This document shows, in pieces, positions 47,497 through 52,986 of a stretch of DNA of 64,000 bases. The notes beneath the pieces are model-generated. The model did no database searches. It was given only the letters and a program-made list of their open reading frames with translations, and was not told where the DNA came from. The stretch covers positions 1-64,000 of the forward strand of contig JAFRAO010000016.1 in NCBI GenBank assembly GCA_017405375.1, in the 5' to 3' direction. Origin of the DNA: a bacterium. Its GTDB lineage: Bacteria; Cyanobacteriota; Vampirovibrionia; Gastranaerophilales; Gastranaerophilaceae. The position numbers and the translations under genes are program-made. Within the stretch, counting starts at the first letter, position 1. Every line of letters begins with the position of its first letter.

Positions 47497-47805
47497 TTAT
47501 AATTGCGCTCTTAATGCTTGGACTTCTTGATTATAATATTCAAGCCAGCTTTGATTTTCTGTTTTCATAGACGGTTCACAAACGGCTCGTATTCTTTTTT
47601 TATCAAGTTCGTCAAGTTGTTTTTGAATTTCCGTTCTTTCATTTTGTATCGCTATTTCAGCAAGTTCTTCCTGCGTTTTACCAAGCGCATTTAAACTTTC
47701 TTCTGTTTCTTCAATTTTATATCCTTTGTTATGATTATTGTCTACTATAAAGTCTAATCGCTGTTTTTCCGTATAAGGTTTACTTAAAGTTGCTTTTATT
47801 TCCAT
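47497..47805 (-). CDS. Phage-tail-assembly-like small protein
   Basis: A 102-aa protein. It starts MEIKATLSKPYTEKQRLDFI, is mostly charged helices, and ends KTENQSWLEYYNQEVQALRAQL. The Trp-Leu-x-x-Tyr and Val-x-x-Leu-Arg C-terminus is like the small tail-fibre-assembly or accessory proteins next to phage tail-fibre genes. It lies 11 bases after the tail-fibre-like gene, which supports this. The family is not certain. No other phage gene is near. Confidence 0.6.
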   Translation of the reverse strand: MEIKATLSKPYTEKQRLDFIVDNNHNKGYKIEETEESLNALGKTQEELAEIAIQNERTEIQKQLDELDKKRIRAVCEPSMKTENQSWLEYYNQEVQALRAQL

Positions 47806-47816
47806 TTTAATCCTTT

Positions 47817-48794
47817 CTAATTTATATAACCTTGTGCTGTATACATAATAGGTACACCCGCAACAGGTGCTGCAACATATGCCGCTAATGCAGTTTTATC
47901 TGTGCCATAATAATATCCATAATTTCCTGTGCCATACCAAGTAATATTAATTGTGTAGTTTATATCTTTATATGGTTTTAAAAAATAAAACCAATAACCT
48001 GAATATCCCACTCCGCCTTGTTCACACCAGCCGTCGGAATATATACGATACCAAGAACCACCGTTATAATATGTTTCAACTACTTCTGCAGTTGAATTAT
48101 GATTCGCATTTGTTACAAGTTTTGAGTTAAACGGATAAGATTGTAAATTACTTACAGTAGCAGAAGAAACAGTAAATTTCCCGATTGCGACTTTTTTAAA
48201 ATCAACTAAGTCATTTCCTATTGATTGTTTTATAATAGCAGGAGAACTTGATGTATCAACCCAAACATCATTCACTAATAATGTAGGTTGATTGGGTTGT
48301 ATATATATTTTATTATTTAATACAGAAATATTACCTTCTTTGTCAATAAAAATGTTGTAATTACCATCTGCAAATCCTGTAATATCATAGTTATTAACAT
48401 CTGAAATTTCGATATTAGTATTATCTGTATAAATTTCTAAGTTTTTATAACCTGTTCCTATTTTAAATATTAAATTAGAACCTGAAATATCAACAATATC
48501 TGCTTTTCCATCAGAATCTGTATTACCGTTTATTGCAAAAATATGACCGTTGAATCCGGATAATTTATATACAAGTTCATCTTTTAATTCATTAATATAT
48601 TCTTCAGCTTGAGCTTTGTTAATGGCATGAGAATTATTTGTTGCATTTGCAACAGCAAACGTTGTATTAGAATCTCCGCCTAAATCACATTTGTTATTCA
48701 ATTCATCTTTAATAGCTGAAAAATTTTCATTAACTTCTTGTGCTTTGGCTTTTGTTCCCGGAATGAAAAGATTTGGAACTATAAAGTTACTCAT
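47817..48794 (-). CDS. Phage tail-fibre-like protein
   Basis: A 325-aa protein. Residues 1-70 are helical and contain FIPGTKAKAQEVNENFSAIK and then GGDSNTTFAVANATNNSHAI, a form of the G-x-S-x-x-F-x-V-A-x-A-x-x-x-x-H-A-x-N-K motif found at trimeric fibre regions of many phages. The C-terminal part has beta-rich Gly/Tyr segments (WCEQGG, NYGYYYGTDK) as in fibre tips. I start at the ATG at 48794 because AAAGGAAAATTT precedes it; a TTG five codons earlier would place that site inside the gene. It lies directly downstream of flagellin but after a terminator. It could belong to a tailocin or a remnant prophage, yet no capsid, portal or integrase gene is seen. Confidence 0.7.
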   Translation of the reverse strand: MSNFIVPNLFIPGTKAKAQEVNENFSAIKDELNNKCDLGGDSNTTFAVANATNNSHAINKAQAEEYINELKDELVYKLSGFNGHIFAINGNTDSDGKADIVDISGSNLIFKIGTGYKNLEIYTDNTNIEISDVNNYDITGFADGNYNIFIDKEGNISVLNNKIYIQPNQPTLLVNDVWVDTSSSPAIIKQSIGNDLVDFKKVAIGKFTVSSATVSNLQSYPFNSKLVTNANHNSTAEVVETYYNGGSWYRIYSDGWCEQGGVGYSGYWFYFLKPYKDINYTINITWYGTGNYGYYYGTDKTALAAYVAAPVAGVPIMYTAQGYIN

Positions 48795-48921
48795 AAATTT
48801 TCCTTTCAAAAATTTATCATAACCTTATAATCATTAGGGCATATAATTATTAGAACATTTTTTTTTGATATTGTCAAATTTTTTTGATTTATAAAACATT
48901 GGATTATGGGAATATTTAACT

Positions 48922-48986: not shown

Positions 48987-49826
48987 TTATACTAAGTTTA
49001 AGGCAATTGATGGTGATTGGTTTGCTGTTGCTAACAATGTTGCTGATGTTTGTTGTAGAATTTGTTGTTTGATGTAATTTGAAGATTCTGCAGCTATATC
49101 AGCATCTTTAATTAATGAACTTGATGATGTCAAGTTAGTTTGCATTACATTTGCAGCATCTATTGCAGATGTAATTGCAGCTTGTTTACCACCGATTGCA
49201 GTTGTTGCATCTGTAACACTTGCAATTGCTGCATCAACACTAGTTAAGAATGTTCTTGCATCTGTATCTGACCAGCTTGTAGAAACATCAGACAAACCTA
49301 AACCTGCTTGAGCTTGGCAATTTTGGAATAATGATGCTTCCAATGTAATTTGAGATTCTGTACCGCCTGTAATACCAACTTGAAGTTGAATAGGATCAGT
49401 AATTGAACCATTAATCAAATTTTTACCATTGAATTCAGTTGAATTTGCTGTACGTGTAATTTCAGCCAATCTTGAGTTAATTTCAGTTGCCATTGCTTTC
49501 ATAGCATCTGATCCATAAGTACCGTTTGCAGCTTGTTCGGTTAAGTCCCTGATACGATTCAAATTGTCATTTACAACGCCCATAACACCTTCCATAGTGT
49601 CTAACATTGATGCACCCATTTGAGCATTTGATTGAGCTACGCTTAATGAACTTGTTTTGTAGTCTAATTTTCTTGATACTGCTAAACCAGCTGCATCGTC
49701 TTTAGATGAGTTGATTTTCAAGCCTGTTGACATACGTTCCATTGCTGTGTTCATTTTGGTTGTAGCTTTGTTCAATGAGTGTTGAGCTGTAAGTGATGCT
49801 ACGTTTGTGTTTACTGTAATTGCCAT
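48987..49826 (-). CDS. fliC: Flagellin
   Basis: A 279-aa filament protein. It has the conserved N-terminal D0/D1 part (MAITVNTNVASLTAQHSLNK, MSTGLKINSSKDDAAGLAVS) and the C-terminal helices (SLIKDADIAAESSNYIKQQI ... LATANQSPSIALNLV). The middle variable region is short (about 140-210), so the filament surface is small. The ATG has an excellent GAAAGGAG. Upstream is a structured leader with a CsrA-type hairpin; csrA and fliW are 1.4-2.2 kb away. No sigma-28 promoter is recognised by eye. It follows hsp20 on the same strand but with a separate terminator-like palindrome between. Confidence 0.97.
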   Translation of the reverse strand: MAITVNTNVASLTAQHSLNKATTKMNTAMERMSTGLKINSSKDDAAGLAVSRKLDYKTSSLSVAQSNAQMGASMLDTMEGVMGVVNDNLNRIRDLTEQAANGTYGSDAMKAMATEINSRLAEITRTANSTEFNGKNLINGSITDPIQLQVGITGGTESQITLEASLFQNCQAQAGLGLSDVSTSWSDTDARTFLTSVDAAIASVTDATTAIGGKQAAITSAIDAANVMQTNLTSSSSLIKDADIAAESSNYIKQQILQQTSATLLATANQSPSIALNLV

Positions 49827-49833
49827 AATAGAT

Positions 49834-49890
49834 CTCCTTTCGTGATTAATACACTGCGTCCTTGCAGCGTACTGCTACGGTTTCCCGTAA
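49834..49890 (-). promoter_or_regulatory. Flagellin leader with CsrA-type binding sites
   Basis: On the minus strand, ACGCTGC and GCAGTGT (49851-49870) form a 7-bp stem with one G-U pair and a six-base loop, AAGGAC. The GGA sits in the loop exactly as in high-affinity CsrA sites. A second GGA is in the Shine-Dalgarno AAAGGAG (49834-49840), 24 bases away. A further TACGG-GAAA-CCGTA hairpin (49876-49889) lies just upstream, and a GCAG-TACG-CTGC pairing can compete with the CsrA hairpin. The two sites match the double-site arrangement of the Bacillus hag leader. Confidence 0.7.
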
Positions 49891-50030
49891 CGGTTAGTGT
49901 GACAACATACACATATCTTTTTATGTACAGTTTTCTTATTCCACAGATTAAAAATTTTATAACACCCATGCTTTTTTTATTTTACATAAGTTTACAAATT
50001 GAAGATAAAAATCTTTAATCTTTTATACGC

Positions 50031-50064
50031 AAAAGCGTTGTATTATCTCTAATACAACGCTTTA
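50031..50064 (-). terminator. Terminator-like palindrome after hsp20
   Basis: AAAGCGTTGTATTA pairs with AATACAACGCTTT around a short loop, on the minus strand downstream of hsp20 (ends 50097). The T run is short, so termination may be partial. Confidence 0.7.
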
Positions 50065-50096
50065 AATTTTTGTCTGATTTTTATAAAATTTTGTAA

Positions 50097-50528
50097 CTAT
50101 TCTATTGTTAATTTCTTAATATTCTTTTTTTCGTCCATTTTTTTTAATGTTATTCTTAATATACCATTTTTAAATTCACATTTTGAATTTTCAGTATCAA
50201 TATCATTTATAAATTCGAACGATTTATTAAATTTTCCGTATTTGATATTCGAATAATGCATTCTTTCGTTATCTTGCAACTCTTCGTGTTTTAATTCCGC
50301 AGAAATTGTAAGAATTTTATCTTCAACTTCTATATTAATATCTTCTTTTTCAATTCCGGGTAGTTGAAGTTTCACGATATACTCGTTATCATTTTCTCTA
50401 ATTTCGCTCATAGGAGCAAACTCATTCGCTTCTTTTTCTACAACTGCATCCCAAATGCCTTCTAAATTGCTGCGAATGTCTGAAGGAATATAACATTCAG
50501 GATCTCTTTCAATAACACTAAATCTCAT
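50097..50528 (-). CDS. hsp20: Hsp20-family small heat-shock protein
   Basis: A 143-aa alpha-crystallin-type holdase chaperone. The core domain runs from about residue 42 to 135, with YIVKLQLPGIEKEDINIEVE, the GILRITL motif near the end and a final I-x-I/L-like tail (LTIE). It binds unfolding proteins without ATP. GGAGGTG lies close to the ATG. It stands between the csrA operon and flagellin, separated by palindromes. Confidence 0.92.
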   Translation of the reverse strand: MRFSVIERDPECYIPSDIRSNLEGIWDAVVEKEANEFAPMSEIRENDNEYIVKLQLPGIEKEDINIEVEDKILTISAELKHEELQDNERMHYSNIKYGKFNKSFEFINDIDTENSKCEFKNGILRITLKKMDEKKNIKKLTIE

Positions 50529-50630
50529 AATTTACACCTCCATATTTGTTTTATCTACATTCATGTTATAACACTTTTTTGAATGATTTATTGTTTTTTT
50601 AACATTTAATTAATTATTGAGGGTAATTAT

Positions 50631-51215
50631 TTATATTTTGTTAAGCATCTTTTTTGCCGGAAAATAATTTGGTAATATATCCAAGCATTTTTGTATCTCT
50701 TTTTTGGCAAATTTTACATTTTTATATGATAGGTAATATAATCCGTATAAAAAATGAAGTTCAGGGTCATTGTAACATTTTTCAGTACCTTTTTTGAGAA
50801 AGATTTTAGCAATAGTAGGATATTTGTAGTTGAGCATTACTCGCGCAATAAATTTATAACTTTCCTGATTTATTTCATAAAATATATCACAGGCATTTAT
50901 AACATTTTCAACCGATTCCAGCATTTTTGCTTTCAGAAGTAAGCCAATATCCACTTCCAAAAAATTTCTTATCTGCAAATATGATGGCAAAAATTGGATA
51001 TAATTATTCATAAATTGTGTGAGTAAAAATGCCCAATCTGCCCTTAAATCCATTTCTCTAAGTGATGAAAAGATTTTTTTAGCATCGTTTATTTGCCCGC
51101 TAAGAAGTTTACAATACCCATATTCAAGTAAATAATTGTTTCTTAAAAAATAATTCTCACATTCAGATGAAATTTTTATATCTAATAAATCGTTTCTTGC
51201 TGTTATATAATCCAT
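50631..51215 (-). CDS. TPR-like helical protein of the csrA operon
   Basis: A 194-aa all-helical protein without a signal peptide. TPR-like units appear at about 30-55 (YGYCKLLSGQINDAKKIFSSL) and 150-190 (PELHFLYGLYYLSYKNVKFAKKEIQKCL). Its ATG overlaps the csrA stop by one base (TAATG), so it is coupled to csrA. Proteins in this position are sometimes flagellar chaperones or regulators, but no such family is recognised. It may bind a flagellar or secretion partner. Confidence 0.7.
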   Translation of the reverse strand: MDYITARNDLLDIKISSECENYFLRNNYLLEYGYCKLLSGQINDAKKIFSSLREMDLRADWAFLLTQFMNNYIQFLPSYLQIRNFLEVDIGLLLKAKMLESVENVINACDIFYEINQESYKFIARVMLNYKYPTIAKIFLKKGTEKCYNDPELHFLYGLYYLSYKNVKFAKKEIQKCLDILPNYFPAKKMLNKI

Positions 51216-51499
51216 TAATTTGTTTTTTTCTTGATGATAACTTTTTTGTTTTGAAGTTTTTGTTCATTTGTATTTTTAGGCATTAAATCTGATAAATTGC
51301 CCAATGCATCAATAGAAACACTTTCAGATTCTTTATTAGCTGCTTGTATTAATGCATAAACTTCTTCCCTGTATATTTTTACATCTTTTGGTGCATTTAT
51401 TGCAATTTTACAGTTATCAATCTTTGAATCCAATATTGTAATTTCAATAACATCATTAATTATAATTTTTTGTCCGTTCTTACGAGATAAAACTAGCAT
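51215..51499 (-). CDS. csrA: Carbon storage/flagellin regulator CsrA
   Basis: A 94-aa RNA-binding protein. The N-terminal 60 residues are typical of CsrA, with L4 and R6 in MLVLSRK and R44 in YREEVY, the residues that contact GGA in RNA. It carries an unusual C-terminal extension of about 30 residues ending in KKVIIKKKTN, which is basic. It should bind the flagellin leader (49834-49890). fliW is 6 bases upstream and a TPR gene overlaps downstream. GGAG precedes the ATG. Confidence 0.95.
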   Translation of the reverse strand: MLVLSRKNGQKIIINDVIEITILDSKIDNCKIAINAPKDVKIYREEVYALIQAANKESESVSIDALGNLSDLMPKNTNEQKLQNKKVIIKKKTN

Positions 51500-51505
51500 A
51501 ATAAC

Positions 51506-51976
51506 TTATTCTCCTTTCGTCTCAGACAATTCTTTTTCTTCTTCGTTGTTGTTTTGAAAAAGAGGATAAGTTACATCAAAGCCCGTTCCGGATAAAATTA
51601 CCTGACCTGCTTTATGATTTGTTATATTAAAAATAAGCGGTGCAAGTAAATTTATTGTCGCTTCTCTTGGTTTGTTATTAGGAATTTTTGTAATATTTAA
51701 AACTACTAATTCTTCTGCTGTTTTTATATCTAATGCTGCTTCTGCCTCATCAGGAAGTTCAAAAACATAATCTATACCAAAAAATGTAGGTGCTGTTACT
51801 AAAAAAGCTAAGTCAGGTGTAATTGTTGATTGCAACCACCTAAAAACAGAGGCATCTTTTGATTCTATTAGCAAAAATTCTTTTTCTTCGTTATATCCTA
51901 AAATTGGCATATCAAATTGGAAAATGTTTTTTTCATCTCCTTCAATTTCGCCAAAACGTGTTGTATTAATTTTCAT
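51506..51976 (-). CDS. fliW: Flagellar assembly factor FliW
   Basis: A 156-aa beta-barrel protein. In Bacillus FliW binds either flagellin or CsrA; when flagellin is exported, free FliW blocks CsrA and flagellin translation resumes. MKINTTRFGEIE, FQFDMPILGY, FRWLQSTITPDLAFLV and the C-terminal GTGFDVTYPL are family signatures. The C-terminus has an acidic tail (NNNEEEKELSETKGE) beyond the usual end. It is in one operon with csrA, and the preceding TPR gene ends 8 bases upstream. Confidence 0.95.
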   Translation of the reverse strand: MKINTTRFGEIEGDEKNIFQFDMPILGYNEEKEFLLIESKDASVFRWLQSTITPDLAFLVTAPTFFGIDYVFELPDEAEAALDIKTAEELVVLNITKIPNNKPREATINLLAPLIFNITNHKAGQVILSGTGFDVTYPLFQNNNEEEKELSETKGE

Positions 51977-51984
51977 ATCTATCC

Positions 51985-52986
51985 TTATTTGCTTTCCGTA
52001 TTAAAATTTAAATTAGGTATCATTGAGTTCATCATCATAGTTTGCAACATTTCTGGGGGTACTTGTTGTTGTCCGCTTTGTCCTTGCTGCATCATAAGAT
52101 AAGGTAACATATTTACCATATTGTTATTCATTGAATTGTTTTGATTATTTGTATCTCCAAACAAAGAATTTATATCAGGTTGACTCATTAACGCCATTTG
52201 CGCCTGTATATATTCTTGTTGAAGTTGTTTTTGGTATTCCTCTTGAGAAATAGTTTCTGTATTATTTTTTGCCATAGCGGCATTATTGTTACCGTTTGAA
52301 TCGCTTGTATTGTTTACATTGTTTTCGTATTGTTTTGCAATATTGTTTAATCCTGCATCATTCAAAACTTTTAATGCTTTTACTATTTCTGCATCTGTAG
52401 GTTTTGAAGTTGCAATCTTTTCGTTTGTAACATCATGTGAGCCTTTTTTCTTAGAAAAATTTTTGTAGTCTTTAAACTCATATCTGTTTAATTCTTGTTC
52501 TGTGTTCATTTCTTTTCTTAAACGTTCAACATGACTACGATTGATTTGTTGTGTTAATTCGGAAGAAAGACCGTTTCCGTAGTTAGATCTTACAAACACG
52601 TCTAATTCTGTTAAATTTTCTTTTGGTGCTGTTTCTTTTATCCTATTGTAGCAATTACTTGGGTCCTCTATGCAAACTAAACCTTTTTGTGCATATTCGC
52701 CCAAAGTATTATTTGGATTTAATGCTTTAGTTTTGTTATAAAATTGTACGGCTTTTTCTCTATCCCCTATTTTTGTGTATGCCATAGCCAAATAGTAATT
52801 TCCCAGTTGATTTGAAGTGTTTTTTTGTAAATATTCATCTAAATCTTGTATGCAGCCAACGTAGTTACCTGCTTTATATTTTTGTATTGCAACTTGAACT
52901 TCATTATTAATATTTTGTGTTGCAGCAAATAACTTTGGCGCAAATATTGAAATTATTAAAATTGTTAATAAAATTCTTTTTATCAT
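51985..52986 (-). CDS. Exported TPR protein with Asn/Met/Gln-rich tail
   Basis: A 333-aa protein with a signal peptide (1-22, ending LFA). About residues 26-105 hold two to three TPR units (YKAGNYVGCIQDLDEYLQK and AMAYTKIGDREKAVQFYNK). The remaining 230 residues are low-complexity: a charged helical part, then poly-N/S and a C-terminus very rich in M, N and Q (NNNMVNMLPYLMMQQGQSGQ). No family is known to me. It is the first gene of the fliW-csrA operon, so a link to flagella or to the envelope is possible. Confidence 0.78.
   Translation of the reverse strand: MIKRILLTILIISIFAPKLFAATQNINNEVQVAIQKYKAGNYVGCIQDLDEYLQKNTSNQLGNYYLAMAYTKIGDREKAVQFYNKTKALNPNNTLGEYAQKGLVCIEDPSNCYNRIKETAPKENLTELDVFVRSNYGNGLSSELTQQINRSHVERLRKEMNTEQELNRYEFKDYKNFSKKKGSHDVTNEKIATSKPTDAEIVKALKVLNDAGLNNIAKQYENNVNNTSDSNGNNNAAMAKNNTETISQEEYQKQLQQEYIQAQMALMSQPDINSLFGDTNNQNNSMNNNMVNMLPYLMMQQGQSGQQQVPPEMLQTMMMNSMIPNLNFNTESK

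Follow-up and report, generated by a model that had tools for sequence, protein, structure and literature searches.

In Bacillus subtilis, the hag leader contains two CsrA sites, one of which overlaps the Shine-Dalgarno sequence (PMC7652899). The flaA leader of Campylobacter jejuni has two stem-loops in tandem whose loops contain GGA and whose stems show compensatory changes, and FliW acts as the antagonist (PMC4894983). Cyanobacteria are not among the groups with FliW in a published survey (PMC4682653), and our literature search returned no paper joining CsrA with Melainabacteria or Gastranaerophilales. We analyzed a 64,000-nucleotide stretch of DNA (the window) from a Candidatus Gastranaerophilales MAG (1.78 Mb, 49 contigs), the closest named relatives of which are other Candidatus Gastranaerophilales MAGs, many of rumen or gut origin. 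The results make it very probable that a CsrA-FliW-flagellin homeostasis circuit operates in this group; CsrA binding, repression and partner switching by FliW are the steps that we infer for this organism.

The presumed target and the elements of its leader are as follows.

48987..49826, minus strand: flagellin gene, presumed regulated target (279 aa; Pfam Flagellin_N 8.5e-34 and Flagellin_C 4.3e-15; NCBIfam flagellin models)
49831..49840, minus strand: Shine-Dalgarno sequence AAAGGAGATC, candidate CsrA site that overlaps the ribosome-binding site, identified by sequence (second GGA at 49837-49835)
49850..49871, minus strand: hairpin H2 with loop AAGGAC, primary candidate CsrA site (loop GGA at 49861-49859)
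49874..49891, minus strand: hairpin H1 (GTTACG-GGAAAC-CGTAGC), 5' of H2 (pair probabilities of at least 0.996; structure conserved in the genus)

Hairpin H2 reads TACGCTGC-AAGGAC-GCAGTGTA on the minus strand of the flagellin leader. The initial annotation had proposed this hairpin with a 7-bp stem and an exposed GGA. Predicted folding agrees as to the hairpin and its loop, in which all bases are unpaired with a probability of 1.0 above a closing pair with a probability of 0.998, but the stem is longer than proposed, with 8 contiguous pairs by eye (including one G-U) and 10 in the MFE structure. The second GGA had been placed 24 bases downstream in the Shine-Dalgarno sequence, which is exactly the start-to-start distance found. 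The leader has at least two GGA motifs, in the H2 loop and at the ribosome-binding site. What the earlier description had missed is the additional conserved hairpin H1 upstream. The leader as a whole is more stable than its shuffles (z -2.97; only 2 of 200 shuffles were as good), and a search of it for Rfam riboswitches gave no match.

The surroundings of the flagellin gene include a perfect 14-bp inverted repeat with a 4-nt loop (50032-50063), located between an hsp20 gene and the flagellin leader and terminator-like on the plus strand. Downstream of the flagellin gene (47497-48809, minus strand) are two ORFs of 102 and about 330 aa without a Pfam match, and the start of the larger one resembles phage tail-fibre proteins.

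Conservation of the loop GGA in orthologous leaders had been set beforehand as the refutation test for the CsrA reading. The GGA in the H2 loop is kept in 7 of 7 orthologous leaders of the same flagellin type from the genus, and the stems around it covary. In a manual register of the genus leaders, three have T-A and four have C-G at H2 pair 6; pair 7 occurs as G-C, G-T or A-T, with one T-T mismatch, so that two stem pairs have undergone two-sided, compensatory changes (T-A/C-G and G-C/A-T). H1 is found upstream in all six genus leaders that extend far enough; pair 5 of this hairpin covaries as well (C-G, T-G or T-A). GGA is present in the apical region of H1 in four of the six. The genus has a second flagellin type, with GGA in the first hairpin of three leaders (L067, L068, and L071); in L074 GGA has been lost from the loop of the first hairpin and acquired by the second. 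Within the genome itself, GGA-loop hairpins are present in the leaders of three of the four flagellin genes, two of them above the strict threshold, and none is evident in the leader of the fourth.

For a wider view, 121 leaders of flagellin-like genes were gathered across the order, and the 109 suitable for consensus scoring were compared with RTACARGGATGT, which we take to be the E. coli CsrA SELEX consensus, requiring at least 10 of 12 matching positions with GGA fixed. Sites at this level occur in 32 of the 109 flagellin leaders, in none of the 98 control leaders taken from other genes of these loci, and in 0.6% of shuffles. Counted by genome, 29 of 38 carry one or more strict sites in a flagellin leader (shuffles: mean 3.3, maximum 7). 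The site thresholds were chosen after inspection of the leaders, but the consensus itself is external. The distance from the site GGA to the Shine-Dalgarno GGA clusters at 19-21 nt. The examined leaders of the other nine genomes, including G003, G004, G030, and G033-G035, have no strict site, meaning either that some flagellins are outside this control or that weak sites were missed. The H2 loop of G000 matches the SELEX string at only 8 of 12 positions, although its hairpin is among the strongest. Nearly every leader (117 of 120) has a GGA in its Shine-Dalgarno sequence, which is thus uninformative on its own. Across the whole genome of this organism the SELEX motif is not in excess (131 occurrences vs. 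234 for the reversed pattern), and consequently no further CsrA targets can be named. The conserved loop GGA, the covarying stems and the order-wide sites above shuffles and controls support the earlier reading of the flagellin leader as a probable CsrA target. L136 and L137 (G005:C34 and G001:C72) are open frames of more than 600 aa that begin with a flagellin N-terminal domain and have a GTG start.

The predicted regulators and their neighbors in the window are listed below.

50631..51215, minus strand: TPR protein overlapping the csrA stop codon, conserved neighbor (194 aa)
51215..51499, minus strand: csrA (94 aa; Pfam 2.5e-21; RNA-binding residues L4 and R44; FliW-contact residues I51 and N55)
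51506..51976, minus strand: fliW, predicted CsrA antagonist (156 aa; Pfam FliW 2.1e-32; matches to the solved FliW structures 2aj7 and 5dmb_A)
51985..52986, minus strand: TPR protein with an apparent signal sequence, upstream of fliW, conserved neighbor (333 aa)

Both csrA and fliW are present as first annotated, and their sequences retain the residues expected of the Bacillus and Campylobacter circuit. Among 26 aligned CsrA proteins the RNA-binding residues are intact, R44 being invariant and L4 nearly so, and the FliW-contact positions are kept in all 26 (I or V at position 51, and N55). Alanine at V51 and N55 of C. jejuni CsrA reduced FliW binding (PMC7829508). Among solved structures, the CsrA encoded here is closest in sequence to CsrA in the 5dmb complex with FliW. 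Its structural model has an extended helix (residues 45-72) followed by a disordered, poorly predicted tail from about residue 73 (pLDDT about 50). This is the long basic tail that had been pointed out before, and it is real, with 7 K and 1 E in the last 21 residues. A long tail is found throughout the order, but among the 26 sequences only those from the family have a basic ending such as KKVIIKKK; the KKVIIKKK end encoded here (51215-51290, minus strand) is conserved in the family and not in its sister families. FliS was also found in the genome.

Presence of the two genes was compared in 59 relatives, 40 with a flagellin match and 19 without. CsrA and FliW were found in the same 33 genomes, so that presence and absence agree in 59 of 59; all 33 are among the 40 flagellin-bearing genomes, and neither protein is in any of the 19 genomes without a flagellin match. 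Flagellin-bearing genomes without CsrA are mostly incomplete. In two more complete ones in which csrA and fliW were not found (G025 and G050), the flagellin leaders have strong GGA hairpins (L021 and L028), which suggests that the genes may be missing from those assemblies. This co-occurrence, together with the CsrA and FliW residues described above, argues for a three-part loop like that of Bacillus, as had been proposed.

The order fliW-csrA-TPR gene is kept across families of the order. Seven members of the family that have no flagella lack the fliW-csrA pair at this locus, where the two flanking TPR genes are direct neighbors. The TPR protein tree requires only two changes of csrA presence, and the co-occurrence hence amounts to few independent events. 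The proximity of flagellin to fliW-csrA (1.4 kb), also part of the original proposal, holds for this window but is not conserved, as no relative has a flagellin gene closer than about 1.5 kb to csrA in the csrA loci examined. We considered the TPR gene 3' of csrA as a third component and rejected it. Its product (50631-51215, minus strand) is predicted to be all-helical (pLDDT 97), and a fold search with it returned generic TPR proteins only. The gene overlaps or closely follows csrA across the order, but 49 of the 59 relatives have it, flagella-less genomes among them; because it is kept in genomes without csrA, it is probably a mere neighbor outside the switch. The TPR protein at 51985..52986 is likewise kept in genomes without fliW-csrA.

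The leader hairpins could instead be a CsrA-independent structure, serving as an mRNA stabilizer or as a spacer that opens the ribosome-binding site, with the loop GGA incidental. The H1 stem is kept in two leaders with a loop lacking GGA (G005a and G005b), and stems may accordingly serve stability too. Stem sequences vary, however, yet the H2-loop GGA is kept in all seven genus leaders; in the second flagellin type GGA shifts between the two hairpins, and control leaders have no sites, all of which leaves this explanation improbable. We give even less credence to a version in which CsrA does bind the leader but is antagonized mainly by CsrB-like RNAs, FliW being a flagellin chaperone only. 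CsrB-type RNAs are fast-diverging, and a single family model can overlook them. Our whole-genome search covered RF00018 only; it found no match, with the E. coli control positive. FliW and CsrA are, however, perfectly co-distributed, the FliW-contact residues of CsrA are retained, and FliW and the sRNA route are mutually exclusive in surveys (PMC4682653).

Least credible of all is a two-state RNA switch in the leader formed with a competing GCAG-TACG-CTGC hairpin, which according to the initial annotation could add another switch. The complementary tetramers do exist, at 49864-49875, but the hairpin has a computed equilibrium probability of about 4e-7, its energy in isolation is -3.1 kcal/mol vs. 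-12.7 for H2, and it is absent from the genus orthologues; as far as predicted folding goes, such a switch is already refuted at equilibrium.

In the favored CsrA-FliW-flagellin circuit, a CsrA dimer would bridge the GGA of the H2 loop and the GGA of the Shine-Dalgarno sequence on the flagellin mRNA, with H1 as a possible extra site, and would in this way keep the ribosome off. FliW, encoded in the same operon as CsrA, would bind the C-terminal helix of CsrA and release the mRNA, and cytoplasmic flagellin would in turn bind FliW, bringing repression back until the flagellin is exported. At the level of sequence it is well supported that Gastranaerophilales represent a new case of this known switch, conserved across the order. 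The known brake on flagellin would thereby extend to a non-photosynthetic sister lineage of the cyanobacteria, a gut relative. Across this order, csrA and fliW are kept or lost along with flagella. This speaks for control of flagellin as a core function of CsrA, and flagella-less genomes without csrA are natural knock-outs for asking about other CsrA targets. A stronger statement, which we judge evenly balanced between true and false, is that CsrA in Gastranaerophilales is a device dedicated to flagellin rather than a global regulator, forming with FliW a two-gene unit kept or lost with flagella, while the GGA wanders between tandem hairpins.

Compared to described systems, the locus shares with Hag-FliW-CsrA of B. 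subtilis the adjacent fliW and csrA genes, a flagellin leader with two sites for CsrA (candidate sites here), of which one is on the Shine-Dalgarno sequence, and a CsrA with a C-terminal extension (PMC7652899). It differs in belonging to another phylum, in its multiple flagellin genes (of the four here, at least three have a GGA-loop hairpin), in the second upstream hairpin H1, and in a longer CsrA with a basic end conserved in part of the family. With CsrA-FliW and flaA of C. jejuni it has in common two covarying tandem stem-loops with GGA, as well as FliW; here, however, the Shine-Dalgarno GGA is outside both hairpins, and fliW and csrA are adjacent. The gammaproteobacterial Csr/Rsm systems share the CsrA fold, the RNA-binding residues and recognition of GGA in loops, whereas in Gastranaerophilales no CsrB RNA (RF00018) was found, FliW is present, and CsrA tracks flagella.
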